From IMG/VR virus record IMGVR_UViG_3300037488_003551, positions 1 through 64,000 of that record: 64,000 bases of DNA. One strand, written 5' to 3'. Source of the DNA: a virus. The notes under the pieces were generated by a model. The model was not told the DNA's origin. It worked only from the letters and a program-made list of their open reading frames with translations, and did not search any database. The translations under genes were made by a program, and so were the position numbers. Shown here piece after piece: positions 6,936 through 52,398 of the stretch. Numbering within the stretch: position 1 is the stretch's first letter; every line of letters starts with the position of its first letter.

Positions 6936-6953
6936 AGTTCTTGTACCCAAAAT
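6936..6953 (-). promoter_or_regulatory. Recurrent intergenic motif, copy 1
   Basis: Reading on the minus strand, ATTTTGGGTACAAGAA is identical over 16 nt to the copy at 48369 and nearly so to that at 62907. It points towards the 19-residue peptide gene, whose start is about 50 nt downstream. It probably acts as a promoter or activator site; on the other strand it lies in the leader of the RNA polymerase gene. Confidence 0.5.
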
Positions 6954-6964
6954 CGAGGTCACAT

Positions 6965-9900
6965 ATGAAACTGATACCTATCCTTCAAAACCCCAATGAG
7001 AAGCGTGAGCGCATCCGCGATAAAGTAATTGAAGGACTGACCGAGTCCTTTCCGATTACAGCACGTAATAAAATTATCGAGGTCACGGATGTTTCTTTTA
7101 CTCCGAGAGATTACACCTCGAACGAGCAGAAGATGGCCATCCTTCGGGGAGATTCTCTTTTTGAGACAGCGAAGGGTACGGTACGTATAAAAGATGCGAA
7201 AACAGATAAGGTTTTAGACGAGGCTAAAAATTTCACTCTCGCCCGCGTTCCGTGGTTCACTCCGCGACATACGCTCATCGTTGCTGGAAATGAATATTCG
7301 ATTGCGAACATGGTACGGCCAAAGCCAGGCGTGTACGCACGTAAGAGGGCTAATGGAATCCTCGAAGCTAGTTTTAATACTGTCGGCACCTCGAACTTTA
7401 ATGTCACCATGGACCCGGAGAAGGGAGAACCAGAGCTCGAGTACGGTTCTTCCAAAATACCTCTTTACACAATTCTCCGAGCCTCGGGAATCTCCCATGA
7501 CGCTATCGCTAAAAAGTGGGGTAGTGCACTAGCGAACGAAAATCAGAAGCGTCTTGAAAAGAATCTTCCGCAGCATGTCGACAAGCTTTATCGAAAAGTA
7601 GTTCCTGCTTACGCTATCCTTCCAGATATGACCGTGGACTCCAAGATGGAGGAGGTCCTTGCGCGGTATAAAAAGGCGACGATGGACCCAAAGGTTAATG
7701 AGAAAACCTTGGGAACAGCGTACGGGCATGTGACTCCTGATAGCCTCCTCGACGCTTCGGCAAAGGTGCTTAACATTTTTCGTAATCCCGAGGAGGTCGA
7801 TGACCGCGATAACCTCGATTTTAAATCGTTGCGTTCTGTAGAGGACTTTTTCAAAGAGCGCATTCAGCTAGACGCTCGGGATATCGGTCGACGCGCTGCT
7901 ATAAAAATAGAGAATACACCAGAGGTTCGGAAAGCTATGGCCTCGGGAGCGTTTACACCGGGCCTCGTCAAGTTCATCACAGGCTCTCAGCTCGCGGCAA
8001 TTCCTACACAGACGAATCCGATGGAGCTCATAGATACCGCGGTGCGCGTAACGTCGCTAGGCGAAGGCGGTATCAGCTCTGAACGTGCCATCCCCATGGA
8101 AGCGCGGATGATTCATCCAACACAGATTGGGGCGCTTGACCCTGTCCGTACCCCAGAATCTTTTCGCGCAGGTATCGACGTACGTGCGGCGCTATCGGCT
8201 GCACACGATAAAGATGGAAACATTTTTGTCCCGATGCTTGACACCAAAACGGGGAAACAAACCTACATACGTGCAGGAGAAATTGCAACTTCGACTGTAG
8301 CGTTCCCACAACAGGTTATGAAAGGGAAAATTTCAGCTCTGGTAAATGGCAGAATTGCTACGGTGCAAGCGAATAAAGCCCAGTATCAAATTCCCCATTC
8401 TTCGGTGATGTACGGTCCGACCTCAAACCTCATTCCTTTTATGGAGTCTCTGCAGGGTAATAGACAGCTGATGGGGTCGAAGCATCAGACGCAGGCCATC
8501 TCTCTCGTGGACAGGGAAGCTCCTTATGTGCAGGTGATGTCTCCCAGCGGTAAATCTTTCGAGCACATTATGGCTACGGTTGTGAATCCCACGTCTCCTG
8601 TAGCGGGGACGGTTGAAAAAGTAGACGGAGATTATATCTATATTCGTCCGAATGCTAAGACGGCGGCGGAAACAAAACCCGAGCTTGTCCGAGTTTCGTA
8701 CGATACATATCTCCCTATGGCAGCGAAGACATATCTGAATCATGACGTTACGGTAAAAGCGGGGGACTCCGTAAAAGCGGGAGACATTCTAGCTGAATCT
8801 AACTTCACGAAAGATAAGACGCTGGCCCTGGGTAAGAATCTTTCAGTTGCGTATATGCCCTATTACGGTGCGAATTCAAACGACGCCGTCGTTATCAGTT
8901 CCGGGGCGGCAAAAAAGTTGACGTCTGAGCGTCTCTACAAAATTGTTCTCCCGCGCGACGCTGATATCGTTTTTGACCGAACGAAACATAAGACGTATTA
9001 CGGGCATACATATGGGCACGATTATTACGGAGGAGTAGATGAAGAAGGAGTGGTAAAGCCAGGGGCAAAGATTAATGGGGGAGAGCCTGTTGCTTTTAGT
9101 CTCCGTAAATCTACACTTACTTCCGACGATATTCTTTTGGGGCGTCTGCATAAGTCTCTCGTGCGTCCATTCCGAGACGCAACACAGACTTGGGACCACG
9201 ACCACCCCGGGGAAGTGGTGGATGTCGTTAAGACTCCAAAGAGAATTGCTATAACAATTAAAACGCAAGAGCCTATGCAAATAGGAGACAAGCTCTGCTA
9301 TACCGAGGATACGGAGGTTTTAACAACTAATGGATGGAAATACATTAGCGATATTTCAAAAGAAGATATTTGCTATACACTCGATAGAGAGGGATTCATT
9401 CACCTCTGCCGCCCTACACATTTTCACGCCTATAACTCTGCTGATAAATTATTTTTGGTGCGGTCACAACAAGTGGACCTCTCTGTTACGCTAGACCACG
9501 GACAAGTCGTAAAAAAAGGTGAGGGAAACCAACTCACCCCTTCACATGAATTACTCGATAAACCTTTTCAGTTAATTCGCACAGGTACTTGGGCTCCGGA
9601 GAGAGCGTATGACGCAGATGACGCGTGGTGTGCGCTTATGGGTCTCTACGCCGTAAAAGGGCATACCAGAATTCCCGAACTCGTACAGGGAACTTTTGAG
9701 CATGTTGTTGAAATCTTTCTGCGCGAGAAGCTCCAAGAAGGAGAGAAGTTGTGGTTAGAGGGGATTTTAGGAAAATTGGGAATGACAGATAAGAGCCGTA
9801 TCGACGATGACATTCTTACGATTAATGACCCAGTTCTATATGCAGAGTGTCGGACTCTAGGAGATATCGTCGAACGGCGCCTCCCTAAATCAGTCTTTTC

Positions 9901-12319
9901 TCTAAATGCGGGACAGGCTGGAATAGTTATTGATAGCGCTTTGAAAGCAGCAGGTCACCAGACCGGATGGAGTCGAGATAAACAAGGAGACGGGACGGAT
10001 ACCTGTGTAGTCTCCTCGCGTCAACTTGCGGACGACTTACAGCGCCTGGCCCTCCATGCCGGGTATTCAGCCAATATCGTTGTCCATACGGTAAAACGTC
10101 CGCTTTATACCAAGCGTTACTCGTTACGTTTTTTACGTAAGCGGAGTTTTCCCATCATCAATAACCCGCGGAGTAACAAAAAAAATACGAGGGTAATAGA
10201 TTCTAAAGCTCCTGTGTTCGGAGTAACGATTCCTAACCACACCCTCTACGTGCGCGTCAACGGAAAGCCTGTGTGGTCGGGCAACTCTGGAAGGTACGGG
10301 AACAAGGGCGTGGTCTCGGAGATTGTTCCAGACGACCAGATGATTAAGGACGAGGCTGGAAAGCCCGTCGATGTTCTTCTTACTTCAGCCGGCGTCGTCT
10401 CGCGCGTTAATCCGGCACAGATTATTGAGACTGCTGTAGGTAAGGTCGTAGAGAAGACGGGAAAACCAATTATCGTAGAGAATTTTACCGGTAGGGATAA
10501 CGTCCAGTGGGCCAAAGACCTCTTAAAAGAGCATGGCGTAAAAGATAAAGAGACCGTATTCGACCCGCGGTCAGGTAAAAATATTCCTAATGTTTTTGTG
10601 GGTCGGCAATATATCTTTAAGATGTTCAAATCCACAGATACAAACTACAGCGCTCGCGGTGTGGATACTTACGATGCGAATATGCAGCCTACGAAGGGCG
10701 GTAAAGAGAGTGCGAAGGCCATCGGAAAGATGGAGTTCGACGCGCTTGTTGCCCACAACGCTCGCAATGTATTAAGAGAATCCTCTGTTTTGAAGAGCCA
10801 AAAAAATGACGAGTACTGGAGGGCGTTGCAGCTCGGGTATCCTACTCCTCCACCCAAGACTTCTTTTGCGTCTGACAAGTTTTTCAATATGCTGACGGGA
10901 GCGGGTGTTCGTGTAGACCGCTCGGGTTCGAAGATAGGGCTCGCACCCCTCACAGATTCGGACGTCATGGAGATGTCGGCGGGAGAAGTGAAGGACGCAA
11001 AGCTTGTCAGCTCTAAAAATCTGATGCCGGAAAAAGGAGGCCTATTCGACCCCGCCGTTACGGGTGGAATGAAAGGGACGAAGTGGTCCCATATTTCGCT
11101 GGCCGAGCCTATTATCAATCCCATTTTCAAAGAGCCGACGCGCCGGCTTCTGGGAATGACCGAGTCACAACTAGATACGACAGTGCGAACAAAAGGTATT
11201 GGGTACGTTCGGGACGAGCTCGCAAAAATTGATATCGTTAAACGCGAGAAGGATATGCTCGACGCGGCTAATACGCGTAAGGGAACCCCTCTCGATGACG
11301 CGACTAAGCAGATAAAATATCTGCGTGCGTTGAAGGCTCAAAATCTCACGCCGGATAAGGCCTATATCTCGAGTGTCATCCCTATTCTTCCTCCTATCTT
11401 CCGTCCGGTTCTTCCTGGAAAAGGTGGGCAGGAGCTTATTTACGGGGATATTAATCCTCTCTACAGGGATTTGGTGTACGTAAATAATCAGTTTAAAGAG
11501 CTGAAGAAGTTTGGAAAACTCCCTGAGGAAGAAGCCAAGCTTCGAGGGACGCTGCAGGACGCGGTGGGAGCGGTGTATGGAGTCAATGACCCCATTACAC
11601 AGAAGTCGAAGAGCCGTAATCATAAAGGCTTCCTGACCTATATCGCAGGGCAGGGAAGTCCGAAATACGGATACGTTCACTCGAAGCTTTTAAAGAAGCA
11701 ACAAGACCTGGCGGGGCGTGGAACGATTGTCCCAGATACGACCTTGGGAATGGACGAAGTAGGTCTTCCCGAGAATATGATTTGGACGATGTACAAACCG
11801 TTCCTAATTACTCGGTTGGTGCAACAGGGATATCCGGCATTGCAGGCTAAGGAGATGGTCGACGATAAACATCCCGCAGCGCGTGAGGCGATGATGCGCG
11901 AAACACGTGAGCGTCCAGTTATGATCAACCGCGCTCCGACGTTGCATCGATATAGTATCGTGGGTGCTTATCCGATTCCTGTAGCAGGTAAAACAATTAG
12001 GATAAATCCTTTTACAGAAGTGGGCCTGGGCGCTGATTTTGATGGTGACGCGATAACAATTCACACTCCATCAGGTATTAATGCGATTGAAGACGTAAAA
12101 CGAATGACGCTTTCAAACACGCTCTACACGGATAAAGCTCGCGGTGACTTGTTAGTTGCACCCCAAATGGAAGCAGTCATGGGTCTGGCCCAAGCGACCG
12201 CCACACAATCCACGGGACATGCAAAGGTTTACAAAACCAAAGCAGAGGCAATGGCGGACTACAATTCAGGGAAGATAGGCCTTGGAACGAAGGTCACTAT
12301 TAAGGACCAGCAACTGTGA
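6965..12319 (+). CDS. RNA polymerase beta fused to N-terminal half of beta', with intein
   Basis: A 1784-residue precursor. The beta signatures occur in order: PWFTPRHTLIVAGNEY, the GGISSERA...HPTQIGALDPVRTPES block, NRQLMGSKHQTQA, YMPYYGANSNDAVV, then GDKL/SGRYGNKGVVS split by the intein (residues 778-1107), and GKMEFDALVAH. The beta' part starts around GGLFDPAVTGG, continues through VIPILPPIFRPVLP and NRAPTLHR, and reaches the catalytic loop GADFDGDAITIH with Asp1691, 1693 and 1695 (the Mg-binding triad). It ends soon after VMGLAQAT, close to where cyanobacterial rpoC1 ends. Beta-beta' fusions are known in Helicobacter and Wolbachia. The ATG at 6965 (GAGGT upstream) is chosen over an upstream TTG. 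The alpha, omega and sigma subunits are not encoded here. Confidence 0.93.
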   Translation: MKLIPILQNPNEKRERIRDKVIEGLTESFPITARNKIIEVTDVSFTPRDYTSNEQKMAILRGDSLFETAKGTVRIKDAKTDKVLDEAKNFTLARVPWFTPRHTLIVAGNEYSIANMVRPKPGVYARKRANGILEASFNTVGTSNFNVTMDPEKGEPELEYGSSKIPLYTILRASGISHDAIAKKWGSALANENQKRLEKNLPQHVDKLYRKVVPAYAILPDMTVDSKMEEVLARYKKATMDPKVNEKTLGTAYGHVTPDSLLDASAKVLNIFRNPEEVDDRDNLDFKSLRSVEDFFKERIQLDARDIGRRAAIKIENTPEVRKAMASGAFTPGLVKFITGSQLAAIPTQTNPMELIDTAVRVTSLGEGGISSERAIPMEARMIHPTQIGALDPVRTPESFRAGIDVRAALSAAHDKDGNIFVPMLDTKTGKQTYIRAGEIATSTVAFPQQVMKGKISALVNGRIATVQANKAQYQIPHSSVMYGPTSNLIPFMESLQGNRQLMGSKHQTQAISLVDREAPYVQVMSPSGKSFEHIMATVVNPTSPVAGTVEKVDGDYIYIRPNAKTAAETKPELVRVSYDTYLPMAAKTYLNHDVTVKAGDSVKAGDILAESNFTKDKTLALGKNLSVAYMPYYGANSNDAVVISSGAAKKLTSERLYKIVLPRDADIVFDRTKHKTYYGHTYGHDYYGGVDEEGVVKPGAKINGGEPVAFSLRKSTLTSDDILLGRLHKSLVRPFRDATQTWDHDHPGEVVDVVKTPKRIAITIKTQEPMQIGDKLCYTEDTEVLTTNGWKYISDISKEDICYTLDREGFIHLCRPTHFHAYNSADKLFLVRSQQVDLSVTLDHGQVVKKGEGNQLTPSHELLDKPFQLIRTGTWAPERAYDADDAWCALMGLYAVKGHTRIPELVQGTFEHVVEIFLREKLQEGEKLWLEGILGKLGMTDKSRIDDDILTINDPVLYAECRTLGDIVERRLPKSVFSLNAGQAGIVIDSALKAAGHQTGWSRDKQGDGTDTCVVSSRQLADDLQRLALHAGYSANIVVHTVKRPLYTKRYSLRFLRKRSFPIINNPRSNKKNTRVIDSKAPVFGVTIPNHTLYVRVNGKPVWSGNSGRYGNKGVVSEIVPDDQMIKDEAGKPVDVLLTSAGVVSRVNPAQIIETAVGKVVEKTGKPIIVENFTGRDNVQWAKDLLKEHGVKDKETVFDPRSGKNIPNVFVGRQYIFKMFKSTDTNYSARGVDTYDANMQPTKGGKESAKAIGKMEFDALVAHNARNVLRESSVLKSQKNDEYWRALQLGYPTPPPKTSFASDKFFNMLTGAGVRVDRSGSKIGLAPLTDSDVMEMSAGEVKDAKLVSSKNLMPEKGGLFDPAVTGGMKGTKWSHISLAEPIINPIFKEPTRRLLGMTESQLDTTVRTKGIGYVRDELAKIDIVKREKDMLDAANTRKGTPLDDATKQIKYLRALKAQNLTPDKAYISSVIPILPPIFRPVLPGKGGQELIYGDINPLYRDLVYVNNQFKELKKFGKLPEEEAKLRGTLQDAVGAVYGVNDPITQKSKSRNHKGFLTYIAGQGSPKYGYVHSKLLKKQQDLAGRGTIVPDTTLGMDEVGLPENMIWTMYKPFLITRLVQQGYPALQAKEMVDDKHPAAREAMMRETRERPVMINRAPTLHRYSIVGAYPIPVAGKTIRINPFTEVGLGADFDGDAITIHTPSGINAIEDVKRMTLSNTLYTDKARGDLLVAPQMEAVMGLAQATATQSTGHAKVYKTKAEAMADYNSGKIGLGTKVTIKDQQL
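9296..10285 (+). other. Intein inside the RNA polymerase beta region (330 aa)
   Basis: The conserved beta motif GDKM-AGRHGNKG is interrupted here as GDKL | Cys778 ... Asn1107 | Ser1108-GRYGNKG. Block A is CYTEDTEVLTTNGWKYI. Block B is VTLDH with Thr842 and His845. Block F/G is PNHTLYVRVNGKPVWSGN. The penultimate residue is Gly instead of the common His. The middle holds a LAGLIDADG-like endonuclease region (WCALMGLYAVKG near 893, VIDSALKAAG, VVSSRQLADDLQRLALHAGY). The acidic catalytic residues expected in the two helices appear replaced. This suggests a splicing-competent intein with a decayed homing nuclease. Confidence 0.92.
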
Positions 12320-13785
12320 CAGATTCTCCGACCATCATCTCTGGAATTAAGAACATCACCAAACAGGATGTGATTGATTATTACAAAGACCCGATGGTGC
12401 GGGAAAACCTTTTGCGCGCTACCGGAGACAAGCCAGTCCTGACAGTGATGCAGCGTGAACCTGGGACGCCTATCTATCGGCGCTATGACAGGAAGAAGCA
12501 GCCCATCCTTTTGAACATGGACTCGCTGGACGACCTCGCTAAACAGCGTACCGTAGAGTTCCACGCTACACTGGGCGAGGGTACTCGAGAAATATGGGTA
12601 GACTTAGACCCAGGTGCGGCTGTATCCCCTGGAAATCTCAAGAGAACCGTTAAGCACGTCGATGACCTTTTGAAGAAGTTACCTGAGGTCAAAGATACCC
12701 GCATCGTCTTTTCAGGTGGGCGCGGCTACCATGTCCGGGCTGAACTCGAGAAAGAACTGAAGACGAACGCTGCCAAGAAGCTCCTACAGAAAACGCTGCA
12801 GCCTTTGTATGACTCGGGGTCGACGCTTGTCGACGTTCCTCCGAGAGGCAATCAGATACGGCTGGATACCTCGACGTTTCATCCAAAAGGGTCTCTGCGA
12901 GCTCCCTACTCTCTGAATGCGACAACTGGCCTTGTGGCGCTTCCCGTTGCGCGTGAGAAGCTAGATACATTCAATCCACAAGCCGATGCGAGTATAAAGA
13001 GCGTCCTCTCTCAAAAAGACATTGGAGAGTTTGCTCCGGGTATCCCTCGTGACCGTACGACGCAGTTGCTTCCGACAGCTTCAGGTAAAAACTGGACGTT
13101 GGCGGTGCAGAAGCACGTTGCGGATAAAGCAGGCCCGCATTGGGACCTTCGACTGGTAGACCCGGAGACACAGTATGCTCATTCTTGGGCTGTTCCTAAG
13201 GCTTCTTTTCCAGACAATAAGCCGCGTTTGGCGTTGCAGATGCCGACCCACAGCGCAGGCTACGCCCTTACTTTCGGGGAAAAAGGACCACAGAAAATTC
13301 AAGAGGGTTATGGCAAGGGAACTGTTGAGATGGCCCACAAAGAGCCGGTGCAGGTGTTAGAAGTCAACCCGAACAAGGTTGTATTCCAGCGCGGCTCCGG
13401 AGACACTCTGGCGATGCATCGAACGAGTGAGAATAAATGGTTGCTCCGAAAGGCGACGAACATGACTGAGAAGACTGCTTTTTACACTGCGGGTTATCGC
13501 ACTGCTCTTTTGAAGTTAGGTGTAGCGGTAACTAAGCCTGTTGGTATGCGGGGAAAAGAAATGTCCCATGGAGAAGGGAATCGTCCTCTTGAAAGTTCTG
13601 ACACGCATCTTCCCGCGGGGCAAGTGGCGATGATGTTCCAGGGTCTTCCGAACGCTAAGCGGCGTGGAGGCGGAGTCACTCTTGAAAATGTGCCTGCGGT
13701 GGGAGACAACAACGCTGAATGGGGTCCCGCACAAGATGTTATGCAATTCAACGGCGCCTCTCCTTATCTATCAGGACGCGAGTAA
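12316..13785 (+). CDS. LigD-like polymerase (AEP primase fold) fused to 3'-phosphoesterase
   Basis: A 489-residue two-domain enzyme. Residues about 30-230 carry the archaeo-eukaryotic primase/LigD-Pol motifs: IWVDLDPG (Asp96, Asp98), FSGGRGYHV (133-140) and LRAPYSLNATTG (194-205). Residues 255-380 match the LigD 3'-phosphoesterase: VQKH (His267), HWDLRL (His275, Asp277, Arg279), SWAVPK, and THSAGY (His312). No ATP-dependent ligase domain is present. The POL-PE order is that of mycobacterial LigD. Activities may be primer synthesis or gap filling plus trimming of 3' ends. The C-terminus carries TAFYTAGYRTALLKLG, a tag shared with head-associated proteins. GTG start overlapping the RNA polymerase stop (GTGA), AAGGA 9 nt upstream. 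It lies between the two halves of beta'. Confidence 0.88.
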   Translation: MTDSPTIISGIKNITKQDVIDYYKDPMVRENLLRATGDKPVLTVMQREPGTPIYRRYDRKKQPILLNMDSLDDLAKQRTVEFHATLGEGTREIWVDLDPGAAVSPGNLKRTVKHVDDLLKKLPEVKDTRIVFSGGRGYHVRAELEKELKTNAAKKLLQKTLQPLYDSGSTLVDVPPRGNQIRLDTSTFHPKGSLRAPYSLNATTGLVALPVAREKLDTFNPQADASIKSVLSQKDIGEFAPGIPRDRTTQLLPTASGKNWTLAVQKHVADKAGPHWDLRLVDPETQYAHSWAVPKASFPDNKPRLALQMPTHSAGYALTFGEKGPQKIQEGYGKGTVEMAHKEPVQVLEVNPNKVVFQRGSGDTLAMHRTSENKWLLRKATNMTEKTAFYTAGYRTALLKLGVAVTKPVGMRGKEMSHGEGNRPLESSDTHLPAGQVAMMFQGLPNAKRRGGGVTLENVPAVGDNNAEWGPAQDVMQFNGASPYLSGRE

Positions 13786-15587
13786 TGGCAGATCGAACTG
13801 ACACGTTTGGACGCTTACTGGTAAACGACCTGTTGCCAGAGGAGCATAAAGTCTCAGGACCAATAACGAAGAAATCTTTCTATAAGATGCTCGATACGAT
13901 GTCTCGAGAAACTCCAGATGTGTATATAAAAGTTGTTCCAGAATTAAAAAGACTTGGAGACCGCCTTGCCACGACTGAAGGTCTTTCCGTGGGGTTGGAC
14001 GATATCACCCCTGATTATAAAGATCGGAATTCTACCCTTGAACCTTTTGTTAAGCGTTTCGATGCGGCTAAAACAGATAAAATCCGTAGTCAAATAGCGG
14101 AAGAAGCGCACGGTAAAATGCAAGAAGTTGCGATGCGTAATCCGGGGACGATGACGATGCAGGTGCAGAGCGGCGCTCGTGGAAAGCCCGTTCAGTACAC
14201 ATCGATTATTTCTACTCCGACATACGCGCGTGATGGAAAAGGGAGTACTGAGCCGTGGCTCATCCGAAAATCTTATAGCGAAGGACTCTCGCCTGCTGAC
14301 AATTGGGTAGCAGGTAGTGAGGCTATTTTAAATACGATTAGCACTTATACCGCCGTCTCAGAGCCAGGTGAACTTGCAAAAGTGCTCGTAAGTAATATGA
14401 GCAATATCATCATAACCGAGGATGACTGTGGAACTACTAATGGTGTGTTTGTGTCTACTTTGTCTGCTACTGCTTTGGACCGGTACCTCGCAAAAGAAGT
14501 AGGTGGATTTAAACATAACACGCTTATAACATCTCTTAATCAATCCAAGCTTGCGAAGATTTCTCCGACCATTCTCGTACGCTCTCCGATGACCTGTGAA
14601 GCGGGGGATGGCGTTTGTCAAAAATGTCAGGGTCTAAATGAAAAGGGGAGCACGCACGACATCGGCACGAACGTAGGTGTGCGCGCGGCTCAGGCGATGG
14701 CGGAACCTCTCACGCAGTTTGCTCTCGGCGCCAAGCACGGTATTCGTACAGCTAAAGATGAGCGAATTAGAGTCAAAGGAATTCAAGGTCTTCGACAGAT
14801 TACGGAGTCTCCTCAGCAATTTATAAACAAGGCGACGCTCGCTCAATTGAACGGGACCGTGGAGCGTATTGCGGTGGCTCCTCAAGGCGGTCATTACGTT
14901 TTTGTGGGCGGACAGCAGCATTACGTGACGCCCAATTTAGACGTTATCGTTAAAGTTGGAAGTCCAGTTCAAGCGGGGGACGCTCTCAGTCAGGGCATAC
15001 CAAAGCCGGACGAAGTCGTACGCTTGAAGGGACTCGGAGTAGGGCGCCAGTACATGGTCGATACTTTGGCCGGTCTCTATAAAGACCAGGGTCGAGAATT
15101 AGACCAACGCCATTTTGAGCTCCTCGCCAAAGGTGAGCTCAATTATGTGCGCGTTTTGAAGGACCCGAGTCGGAATTTCATTCCTGGCGACGTTGTTAGT
15201 TACAATGTCCTGCGCAATGAATTGAAGAAGGGTACCAAAGTGATGCCCGTGGACGAGGCTGATGGTGAGACTTTAGGCAAGGCCTACTTTCATTTCTACT
15301 CAGGAACGCGCGTCACTCCGCAGATCCAAGCGTATCTCAAACAACAGGGAATCAAGGAAGTGGTCATAGCTCCCCGTGCGCCTGAAGTAGAATTCATCAT
15401 GAAAGCCGCCACCCGAGCACCCCTTTTGAATCCGGACTGGATGGCTCGTTTGGCTCATCGGAATCTGAAAACGACGGTGATGCAGGCCACGCACTTCGGA
15501 GAATCGTCAGATATTCATGGGACGCATCCTGTTCCGGCGTACATAACGGGCGTAGAATTCGGGCAAGGTCCAAAAGGAAAGTACTGA
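13785..15587 (+). CDS. RNA polymerase beta' subunit, C-terminal half
   Basis: A 600-residue protein completing beta'. It contains the four zinc ligands of the beta' Zn2 site: Cys215 in ITEDDCGTTNG, and Cys271, Cys278 and Cys281 in TCEAGDGVCQKC. Next comes the bridge-helix/trigger-loop block GTNVGVRAAQAMAEPLTQFALGAKHG. The start overlaps the previous stop as TAATG, so all three genes are translationally coupled and should be made in similar amounts. The split point resembles the rpoC1/rpoC2 split of cyanobacteria and plastids. Whether the polymerase is packaged in the virion or made early cannot be told from sequence. Confidence 0.92.
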   Translation: MADRTDTFGRLLVNDLLPEEHKVSGPITKKSFYKMLDTMSRETPDVYIKVVPELKRLGDRLATTEGLSVGLDDITPDYKDRNSTLEPFVKRFDAAKTDKIRSQIAEEAHGKMQEVAMRNPGTMTMQVQSGARGKPVQYTSIISTPTYARDGKGSTEPWLIRKSYSEGLSPADNWVAGSEAILNTISTYTAVSEPGELAKVLVSNMSNIIITEDDCGTTNGVFVSTLSATALDRYLAKEVGGFKHNTLITSLNQSKLAKISPTILVRSPMTCEAGDGVCQKCQGLNEKGSTHDIGTNVGVRAAQAMAEPLTQFALGAKHGIRTAKDERIRVKGIQGLRQITESPQQFINKATLAQLNGTVERIAVAPQGGHYVFVGGQQHYVTPNLDVIVKVGSPVQAGDALSQGIPKPDEVVRLKGLGVGRQYMVDTLAGLYKDQGRELDQRHFELLAKGELNYVRVLKDPSRNFIPGDVVSYNVLRNELKKGTKVMPVDEADGETLGKAYFHFYSGTRVTPQIQAYLKQQGIKEVVIAPRAPEVEFIMKAATRAPLLNPDWMARLAHRNLKTTVMQATHFGESSDIHGTHPVPAYITGVEFGQGPKGKY

Positions 15588-15590
15588 AAA

Positions 15591-16088
15591 ATGTACCAGT
15601 ACGGATATAATGCGGCCCTGCATCAGTTGGGTTTAGAGAAGAACGCAGCTTTCTTTCCAGGAGCGGCAGCTCGATTCATGCCGAAACTCAAATCTTTTGG
15701 TAAGGCTGTCGGCACAAATCTTTTTGGACAACCTAAAAAGTTCGTAGGTGAGTTGCGGTCTGGAACGGCATTTGGTAAAGACAGTCTACTTGCAGAAGGA
15801 TTTAAAGCGCCAAAACTCTGGCAAAAAGCGCTCATGTATGGTCTTCCCGCGGCTTCAGCTGTTCAGACTTTGCGGAGTGATGACCCAGATAAAGCAGGGT
15901 CTATTGGAGGTTTAATCGGTGGTACAGCTTTAAGTACAGCTGCTTTTGGACCTTTTGGTATGCTAGGAGCGATACCTACAAGTATGGCAGGAGAATTTAT
16001 CGGTAAGCGTCTCGTACACGGTACGCAGCGTATATTGGGAGTTGGAAATCAACAGGCTCCGCAATATACTTCTTTGCAACAACGGTAA
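15591..16088 (+). CDS. Tagged Gly-rich putative head protein (165 aa)
   Basis: Function unknown. The N-terminus is the recurring tag MYQYGYNAALHQLGLEKNAA. A basic region follows, and then residues about 105-145 are Gly/Ala-rich and hydrophobic (GSIGGLIGGTALSTAAFG), able to insert into a membrane. It starts 3 nt after the beta' stop with an AAGGAAAG SD. The combination of tag and Gly-zipper recurs in several genes here. This fits an internal head protein or ejection protein, but that is inference. Confidence 0.65.
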   Translation: MYQYGYNAALHQLGLEKNAAFFPGAAARFMPKLKSFGKAVGTNLFGQPKKFVGELRSGTAFGKDSLLAEGFKAPKLWQKALMYGLPAASAVQTLRSDDPDKAGSIGGLIGGTALSTAAFGPFGMLGAIPTSMAGEFIGKRLVHGTQRILGVGNQQAPQYTSLQQR

Positions 16089-50666: not shown

Positions 50667-51010
50667 TGCGTGGCATACAAAAACTAGCGGAGCTTGACGG
50701 CAAAGCTATTCTCGGTGGTGGCGCTGCTGGACTCGGTGCATACGCGTTAGCAAATACGCTTACAAAAAGTACCGCGGAAGCTCAACGCATCGCTATGGAA
50801 AAGGCGATAGAGTCTTATGCTAGAACAAAAGCTACGCCGCTTGTTGCTGGCGCAATCACAGCTCTACTTGTAGGAGCATTCGTAGCTTCTAGGATGAAGA
50901 ACAAAGTACAACAACCAACGATGACTCCGCAGCAGATGATGTACCAGCGCCAAGGCTTTCTCCCAGGTGAAGCTGTTCCATTTCCATCTGTAAGTGCGAA
51001 GTACCGATGA
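50663..51010 (+). CDS. Small membrane protein with two hydrophobic tracts (115 aa)
   Basis: Residues 16-33 (AILGGGAAGLGAYALANTL) and 58-77 (PLVAGAITALLVGAFVAS) are hydrophobic. The helix between is basic/amphipathic, and the C-terminus is Gln/Met/Pro-rich. It overlaps the previous gene by 4 nt. Probable membrane-active or virion protein. Confidence 0.55.
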   Translation: MMRGIQKLAELDGKAILGGGAAGLGAYALANTLTKSTAEAQRIAMEKAIESYARTKATPLVAGAITALLVGAFVASRMKNKVQQPTMTPQQMMYQRQGFLPGEAVPFPSVSAKYR

Positions 51011-51126
51011 CAACTCCACGACCCACCATCTATAGAATACCCTCGAAGAATCTCCCAAGGCGTCCTGCTGAAGAGAAGGATAAACGTCTCTGGGAAAAAA
51101 ATAAACAAAAGCGTGGTATAAAGTAG
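51007..51126 (+). CDS. Very basic 39-residue peptide
   Basis: ATG 51007 overlaps the preceding stop (ATGA). The 39 codons give a Pro/Arg/Lys-rich peptide (MTTPRPTIYRIPSKNLPRRP, then EEKDKRLWEKNKQKRG). Net positive and probably nucleic acid binding, or a non-functional tail of the operon. It ends where the structured RNA begins. Confidence 0.45.
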   Translation: MTTPRPTIYRIPSKNLPRRPAEEKDKRLWEKNKQKRGIK

Positions 51127-51577
51127 AGTCGCGATTCTCGTGTAGATGTTGAGCTCGCATGAGTTGGAGCTTGACCGCTGCAGCTACTGCAGTATTTTAG
51201 TCTAATAAGAAAGAAGAGCCATGCCTTTCGGTCGGAGCCGAAAGAGATGAGCTCATGAGCGTCACCGCTACGATTGGCGGTAGCGTCGACGTCCTAGTAC
51301 ACGAGGACCGCGACATTTTAATTAGGCCGCACTGCAGCGTTTTTTAAAAAGAACGCCAGCTGAAGATACTTCAGTACTAAAGGCAACAACAGTGGTTAGA
51401 GTCGTACACGAATCTTTTAGCTTCTTGCTCCTCGAAGTTTTCTATTTTGCGACAAAATAGAAAACGTTCTCCTCGCGGCGAAGTAAAAAGATTCTTGCCG
51501 AACTCTCAGGAGTGCGGTAGGGGAAGGCGTGCCGAGAGTCTCTTCGGAGGCTCTCAGTACGCCGACCTCTTTTTTTG
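51127..51577 (+). ncRNA. Large structured non-coding RNA candidate (about 450 nt)
   Basis: No frame of useful length covers this stretch, yet it is full of strong stems: 51178-51183/51187-51192; 51225-51231/51238-51244 (7 bp); 51266-51271/51280-51285; 51285-51288 and 51291-51295 with 51304-51308 and 51311-51314; 51360-51365/51369-51374; 51410-51418/51486-51494 (9 bp) enclosing 51421-51424/51480-51483 and a perfect 13-bp hairpin 51437-51449/51453-51465; 51502-51505/51510-51513. It ends in a terminator with a UUCG tetraloop (51526-51563) and T-run. TATAAA at 51117 is a possible promoter. Large structured RNAs such as GOLLD and ROOL occur in phages, but no family could be assigned. Confidence 0.75.
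51526..51577 (+). terminator. Terminator with UUCG tetraloop ending the structured RNA
   Basis: GGCGT (51526-51530) with ACGCC (51559-51563), GAGAG with CTCTC, and CTC-TTCG-GAG at the tip form a long stem, followed by CTC and seven or more T. Very stable intrinsic terminator. Confidence 0.8.
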
Positions 51578-51586
51578 CTCCTGAGT

Positions 51587-51592
51587 TATAAT
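51587..51592 (+). promoter_or_regulatory. TATAAT, 6 nt before ATG 51599
   Basis: TATAAT-TGGAGG-ATG. The GGAGG touches the ATG, too close to act as an SD, so the -10 spacing again points to a leaderless start. Confidence 0.5.
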
Positions 51593-51598
51593 TGGAGG

Positions 51599-51952
51599 AT
51601 GGAAACTACCTACGACAAAGTTCTCAGCTGGTACAACAAGCAGCCGTGGTGGGGAAAGATTCTCTTCTTTGGAGTTCTCATCCTGCCCTTGCTCATAGGT
51701 ATTGCGCGCTATGCTACGCTTTTAATCCCAGAGAAAAAACTCGTCCCTTTCACCAAGCCTTCGAACTCACCTCCTTTTGGGAAAGTGAACGAAGCATTGG
51801 ATACTCGCCTCGAGGATTTAAAGAAAGAGTTGATATCTAAGCTGGAGACAGTACGGCAAACAGGTATTAGAGCTGGAGAACGACGTGAAACTATAAAGGC
51901 TGCAACGACAATGGCGGAGCTCGACGAAATCAAAAAGAGGTATGGTCTATGA
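51599..51952 (+). CDS. Single-TM protein with coiled coil (117 aa), possible spanin-like
   Basis: Residues 20-42 form a transmembrane helix (WGKILFFGVLILPLLIGIAR) after a short polar N-terminus. Residues 65-117 are a charged coiled coil (TRLEDLKKELISKLETVRQT). The layout (N-terminal anchor, long periplasmic coiled coil) is that of an inner-membrane spanin (Rz-like). It overlaps by ATGA the next gene, which has a signal peptide, as spanin pairs often do. Inference from architecture only. Confidence 0.5.
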   Translation: METTYDKVLSWYNKQPWWGKILFFGVLILPLLIGIARYATLLIPEKKLVPFTKPSNSPPFGKVNEALDTRLEDLKKELISKLETVRQTGIRAGERRETIKAATTMAELDEIKKRYGL

Positions 51953-52398
51953 AAAAACTCTTTGGAATTTTTTGCCTAACTCTAGTTTTTTGGAGTGCCT
52001 CCCTCGCGGCTGAAGACTTTCCCGAACGCCGAGTCCCGGACGTACCGGCTACGACGATAAAAGGAACAGAGTACAAGTGTTTTGATACGGCACAGTACGC
52101 AACGCTCTTGCTCTTATCCTCAGACTATCAAGCTCTGCGCCAAGTTTACTACTTAAATATCCCTAAAACGTACAACGACCTCGAGGATGTATATGTTCTC
52201 AAACTCTCTTTGAAAGACGATGAGATTTCTTTTCTCCATGGAAAATTATCAGAGGCTCAAAAAGAAATTGCTGCTCGGTACGCCGCTGACGAGAAGATAG
52301 TGAAAAGACTACAACTCTCAGCTACGGGTTGGAAGATTATTTCAGGGGTTGAAGCCGCGTTACTTGTGGTGATGACGGGTTACGCCGTTTTTAAGTAA
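51949..52398 (+). CDS. Exported protein with C-terminal TM (149 aa)
   Basis: A clear N-terminal signal peptide (KKLFGIFCLTLVFWSASLAA, with a cleavage site after Ala-Ala) is followed by a helical domain with a coiled coil (residues 80-115) and a C-terminal hydrophobic segment (IISGVEAALLVVMTGYAVF). Exported and membrane-tethered at the C-terminus. With the preceding gene it may form the envelope-disruption part of lysis. The function is inferred, not shown. Confidence 0.5.
   Translation: MKKLFGIFCLTLVFWSASLAAEDFPERRVPDVPATTIKGTEYKCFDTAQYATLLLLSSDYQALRQVYYLNIPKTYNDLEDVYVLKLSLKDDEISFLHGKLSEAQKEIAARYAADEKIVKRLQLSATGWKIISGVEAALLVVMTGYAVFK

Follow-up and report, generated by a model that had tools for sequence, protein, structure and literature searches.

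A genuine structured non-coding RNA is almost certainly encoded by an uncultivated large bacterial virus (IMG/VR record IMGVR_UViG_3300037488_003551, here G000; 172,892 bp, ~173 kb), in which a folded core of ~390 nt, made of two tandem related domains, is followed by a terminator. It lies in the 64,000-nt stretch of this record that was analyzed as a whole (the window), whose positions are used throughout unless G000 is named. Its fold, its covariation, the hairpin common to its domains, the two-domain layout, the second copy elsewhere in the genome, the position just after a stop codon and the U-tract end are all apparent at the level of sequence.

The plus strand of region 51127–51577 had a folding energy of −195.3 kcal/mol, as compared with −137.2 ± 6.2 kcal/mol for dinucleotide shuffles (z = −9.3), and none of the 100 shuffled sequences reached a value as low. 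In a scan of the whole 172,892-bp record in 200-nt windows, windows 51121 and 51421 (plus strand) gave the fourth and fifth strongest fold residuals. At least ten helices within 51128–51577 showed a mean pair probability above 0.85, in line with the preliminary description, which had counted at least ten strong stems. The UUCG-capped terminator that it placed at the end of the stretch was also present, and so were two of the nested stems in what we call arm C, namely the 13-bp hairpin and the 9-bp stem; the third, given as 4 bp, comprises 5 bp in the modeled fold. The features of the locus are the following:

51007–51126, plus strand: gene for a basic 39-aa peptide, upstream of the RNA (a 41-aa gene in the homologous locus L017, described below)
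51128 to ~51577, plus strand: structured RNA, ~390 nt core plus terminator
51128–51314, plus strand: 5' domain, defined by fold and pair probabilities
51128–51144 with 51298–51314, plus strand: P1, closing stem of the 5' domain, 16 bp
51152–51171, plus strand: hairpin of the 5' domain at the A position
51177–51193, plus strand: hairpin B of the 5' domain, GCTGCAG-CTA-CTGCAGT
51216–51254, plus strand: hairpin C of the 5' domain
51259–51286, plus strand: hairpin D of the 5' domain
51326–51518, plus strand: 3' domain, a four-way junction with closing stem GCCGCACT/AGTGCGGT, defined by covariance models R1 and R2
51337–51356, plus strand: hairpin A of the 3' domain
51359–51375, plus strand: hairpin B of the 3' domain, GCTGAAG-ATA-CTTCAGT
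51398–51506, plus strand: arm C of the 3' domain, with base helix AGAGU/ACUCU, 9-bp stem, internal loop and apical hairpin
51410/51494, then 51420/51484, plus strand: 9-bp stem of arm C, then its 5-bp stem GCTTC/GAAGT
51437–51465, plus strand: apical 13-bp hairpin of arm C, GTTTTCTATTTTG/CAAAATAGAAAAC
51519–51577 (hairpin 51519–51570), plus strand: UUCG-capped intrinsic terminator, −36.9 kcal/mol, z = −6.6, T7 tail
51599–51952, plus strand: gene for a 117-aa protein, downstream, with its ATG ~20 nt past the terminator (L017 protein 54% identical)
51949–52398: ORF, second of a supposed lysis pair
G000 119.65–119.47 kb, minus strand: second copy of the RNA, single-domain and diverged, ~180 nt, found as an R1 match

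The proteins flanking the RNA in the window had no Pfam identity and no informative PHROG match. The basic peptide gene noticed earlier is real, given that a counterpart of 41 residues is kept in the relative, while the label of a possible lysis pair for 51599–51952 and 51949–52398 is unsupported, since neither has a Pfam or PHROG match.

Three contigs have close capsid relatives, and one of them, IMGVR_UViG_3300035659_000004 (G003), covers the RNA locus. This homologous locus (L017) matched positions 354–1749 of the 1751-bp query at 65% nucleotide identity and has the same gene order. Contigs G001 and G002 end short of the RNA loci, judging from their extent and the capsid position, so that the absence of the RNA from them is uninformative. 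The homologue is itself strongly folded (z = −7.9), and when both RNAs were folded separately (MFE) an identical helix order was obtained: in the 5' domain P1, one hairpin and hairpins B, C and D; in the 3' domain the second closing stem, hairpins A and B and arm C; and finally the terminator, which in L017 occupies the same position with another sequence. In sequence-only MAFFT alignments, scored over the helices common to both sequences, the 3' domain showed 10 two-sided changes and no broken pair (reached by 0/500 shuffles); for the 5' domain, of which P1 and hairpin B are kept in L017, there were four two-sided changes and no broken pair, with a weak shuffle control (33/500). Controls with a slid partner gave 0–1. 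Together with the z-score of the RNA fold, these compensatory changes bear out the initial claim of a large structured non-coding RNA.

Could the structure have arisen by chance, or been imposed by coding sequence on either strand? The antisense of 51127–51577 folds well too, if more weakly (−169 kcal/mol, z = −7.2), as would be expected of hairpin-rich DNA. However, covariation without broken pairs refutes this explanation, and the ORFs within the region are short (39–45 aa) and not evidently kept in the homologue, which makes it hardly credible. Moreover, the changes from G-C to G-U, as well as the closing pair of hairpin B, which is G-U in all copies, would leave mismatches if the minus strand were the RNA, and thus place it on the plus strand.

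A covariance model of the 3' domain (R1), made from the window and homologue sequences, was searched in 38 phage records, where its sole match beyond both training sequences was G000:119491–119644 on the minus strand (55.6 bits, E ~5e-12, the E-values being rough). This paralogue was absent from the matches when the full RNA was compared with its own genome by BLAST. The 119-kb copy (fold z = −5.9) is closed by an 18-bp stem (119653 to 119480) that a U-tract follows immediately, and it contains hairpin A, hairpin B (GCUGCUG-UUA-CAGCAGU) and an arm C on an AGAGU/ACUCU base. Over the three 3'-type domains, 99.2% of the cells pair and 22 pairs are changed on both sides, a number reached by none of the 500 shuffles and compared with 0–3 in slid controls, in an alignment that is biased towards structure by having been fitted to the covariance model. 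Compensatory stem changes, which the preliminary description had proposed as its test, are hence seen both between the two phages and with the second copy. The CUCCUCG sequence found on each strand of the internal loop of arm C is only partly retained at 119 kb, and anti-Shine-Dalgarno pairing by these loops was set aside for this reason.

Upstream of the 119-kb copy lies an SLT transglycosylase gene and downstream of it a deoxynucleotide monophosphate kinase gene, with a TnpB-like gene further off. That this copy stands beside different genes favors, though does not prove, a function bound to no single neighbor. The TnpB/OrfB-type gene is located at L068:3381–4583 (G000 120,379–121,581, minus strand), and the transglycosylase gene stands between it and the RNA copy.

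Five domain copies can be compared, two each in the window RNA and the homologue and one at 119 kb, and all of them have in common a closing stem, a GYAG-type linker, a hairpin, hairpin B and an A/U-rich linker. Hairpin B follows the consensus GCUGNNG-NUA-CNNCAGUA in each of the five, and its inner pairs covary among them (AAG/CUU, CUG/CAG and CAG/CUG). Across the 38 phage records, the pattern GCTGNNGNTACNNCAGTANNA occurred without mismatch at only four sites, all in these RNAs; allowing one mismatch added the 5' copy of the window, whose mismatch lies outside the hairpin, and five unrelated matches. A 3'-domain model (R2) scored the 5' domains weakly (15.7 bits in the window and 17.5 bits in L017), so that it is chiefly hairpin B and the layout that speak for a kinship between 5' and 3' domains. 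The base helix of arm C is identical in the window RNA, L017 and the paralogue, while its upper stems covary. Letters are thus kept in hairpin B, at the base of the arm and in the junction linkers, with the other helices rewritten by compensatory change, and the invariance of hairpin B and the AGAGU/ACUCU base amid rewritten stems suggests specific recognition.

The phage encodes RNA polymerase beta and beta' domains within the window. The beta and N-terminal beta' domains share one 1792-aa ORF (6941–15587) with, by eye, an intein-like insert, and a LigD-type primase-polymerase/phosphoesterase gene separates this ORF from the C-terminal beta' part. The capsid protein is 38% identical to the capsid proteins of Salmonella phage Arash and Vibrio phage D69, and beta and beta' subunits are abundant in Arash virus particles (PMC10585845). 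Window proteins at 15591 (plus), 52960 (minus), 53463 (minus), 39043 (plus), 39832 (plus) and 42410 (plus) have common short N-terminal motifs (GYxxALxxLGLEKxAA; MKKTAxQI), perhaps cleavable virion-protein tags. Strong terminator-like hairpins occur at a like position in G000 (168.7 kb, minus strand) and G003 (28.5 kb, minus strand), with different letters and the same stem. Another strong fold (z = −4.1), with several hairpins and terminators, was noted at L018:2353–2735 (G000 66,353–66,735, plus strand); it lies directly 3' of a 233-aa ORF with an HNH-like appearance by eye, extends over the start of the following ORF and had no R2 or Rfam match.

The distance from the upstream stop codon to the RNA is 1 nt for P1 in the window, 0–1 nt in the homologue and ~10 nt at 119 kb, and all three RNAs end in a U-tract, which indicates that the RNA forms the 3' end of a transcript. 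The promoter-like TGGTATAAA ahead of the RNA overlaps the conserved codons GIK-stop and is hence no independent sign of a dedicated promoter. The TATAAA ahead of the RNA was discarded as a promoter because it falls within conserved codons, and TATAAT promoters showed no genome-wide enrichment.

With a same-strand gene following the U-tract by ~20–40 nt at both genomic loci, the RNA might be a cis-acting 3'-UTR element, which would block 3' exonucleases at the end of the upstream mRNA and insulate the next gene or tune read-through into it. The start within ~10 nt of the stop codon, the U-tract end and the closing stem of the 119-kb copy running directly into its U-tract would all suit such a role, and the position at transcript ends does so equally well. 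However, simple hairpins do such work elsewhere in the genome, as exemplified by the 168.7-kb terminator, and the sequence-conserved hairpin B, the junction and the doubled domain would be left unexplained, so that we consider this role, the main rival of the reading favored below, possible though less likely than it.

Alternatively, the RNA could be a riboswitch-like or put-like leader or attenuator, in which the nascent transcript, by sensing a signal or through contact with RNA polymerase, would set read-through before the gene at 51599. The order of RNA, terminator and gene is found at both loci, a multisubunit RNA polymerase is encoded by the phage itself, and part of the closing stem of the 119-kb copy, namely its 3' strand, is overlapped by a short hairpin (AAGAGC-GAGG-GCUCUU). 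However, the terminator of the window RNA and that of the homologue overlap no P1 strand, and the main stem of the terminator is predicted to be formed with a probability of at least 0.94, so that no alternative pairing is seen; furthermore, the downstream genes differ between the copies, with an unknown protein in one case and a nucleotide kinase in the other. We therefore regard attenuation as improbable.

Given these considerations, we tentatively favor the idea that the RNA is a stable, trans-acting scaffold or protein-binding RNA; its transcription, stability, action in trans, binding partner and timing during infection are points that we infer. Transcription of the structural-gene region would yield the RNA as the 3' end of the transcript and halt at the RNA's own terminator, and compact folding would let the RNA survive. 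It might then act in trans as a scaffold in which hairpin B of each domain, next to the multi-way junction, is offered as a recognition element to a protein or a further molecule of the RNA; two such sites would make the two-domain form bivalent, as against a monovalent 119-kb copy. The combination of rewritten helices and a few letter-conserved spots fits a folded RNA that is recognized by a partner at few points. There is also a slim chance that the domain with its invariant hairpin B self-assembles, or joins a phage protein, into a defined particle, with the two-domain RNA as a linker of subunits and the single-domain 119-kb RNA as a cap or regulator of assembly.

To large phage RNAs such as GOLLD and ROOL, which are known yet functionally unexplained, a new family would add a clear modular plan, with one domain that is single at 119 kb and a tandem pair at 51 kb. 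One short hairpin kept through five copies, while the surrounding stems were rewritten, offers a defined element to mutate, and the single-domain form (~180 nt) is a compact object for structure determination and partner pull-down. The phage clade with its own RNA polymerase is also a place to seek such RNAs, as ~1.15 kb of non-coding sequence, different from the RNA described here, occurs in a nearby relative. This gene-free stretch in a related phage (L199:15740–16892; G004 93,739–94,891, minus strand) folds with z = −8.3 over 936 nt, carries eight hairpins of 6–8 bp, all with the loop G-UAC-C, as well as a terminator at its end, and had no Rfam match; it is possibly another giant RNA. As a homologue of the window RNA it was rejected, because its triloops are G-UAC-C and not G-NUA-C and neither R1 nor R2 matched it.

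At gathering score, Rfam 15 gave no match for the RNA in the window and none in the remaining record, and cmscan of 50900–51800 with E up to 10 returned only chance matches to unrelated families. The RNA is thus not GOLLD, ROOL or OLE, in agreement with the preliminary description, which could match it to neither of the first two and thought that it may be new. No tRNA gene was found in the record, either inside or outside the window. R1 and R2 retrieved known members only across the 38 phage records. Searches of viral contigs with flank proteins (two as single proteins and two as two-sequence alignments) returned the known relative only, or nothing, and the exact 18-base RNA pattern found the known relative only; a flank-protein alignment yielded nothing in 34 capsid relatives or in bacterial genomes, and the capsid alignment nothing in bacterial genomes. 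A hairpin-pattern scan of viral contigs gave at least 79 new loci, of which six with a complementary stem were isolated hairpin matches, and there was no significant covariance-model match among the loci listed. BLAST of the RNA, homologue and paralogue in phage and plasmid collections produced chance matches or nothing. The RNA thus appears to be a separate family of an already known kind, with so far three members and five domain copies in two phage genomes.

Among known large RNAs, ROOL is encoded by phages and prophages and forms a homo-oligomeric nanocage. Like ROOL, the new RNA is large, ornate, phage-encoded and non-coding, with many stems; unlike ROOL, it has no Rfam match and sits in a record without a tRNA gene, and the repeated hairpin and tandem domains are found only in the new family. 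GOLLD is phage-encoded as well, with many members exceeding 800 nt, and assembles into a 14-mer. Both ROOL and GOLLD often lie near tRNA islands in phage genomes, and in GOLLD the 3' region is conserved and the 5' region less so (PMC12286853). The new RNA shares with GOLLD a 3' part that is better conserved than the 5' part, whereas it is about half as long (~390 nt core), lacks an Rfam match and has no tRNA nearby. OLE is a large, dimeric bacterial RNA in a chromosomal context; it is likewise a long folded RNA of roughly similar scale, but the new RNA has no Rfam match and resides in a phage rather than a chromosome. The put RNA of HK022 (~70 nt, two stem-loops) is a phage antitermination RNA, a type that acts on the elongating polymerase and suppresses terminators. 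As with put and other polymerase-acting RNAs, a structured phage RNA here stands upstream of a terminator, although, unlike put, it is predicted to have no alternative pairing with it. Gene-free, strongly folded and covarying, the new RNA takes its place beside the large structured non-coding RNAs of phages.
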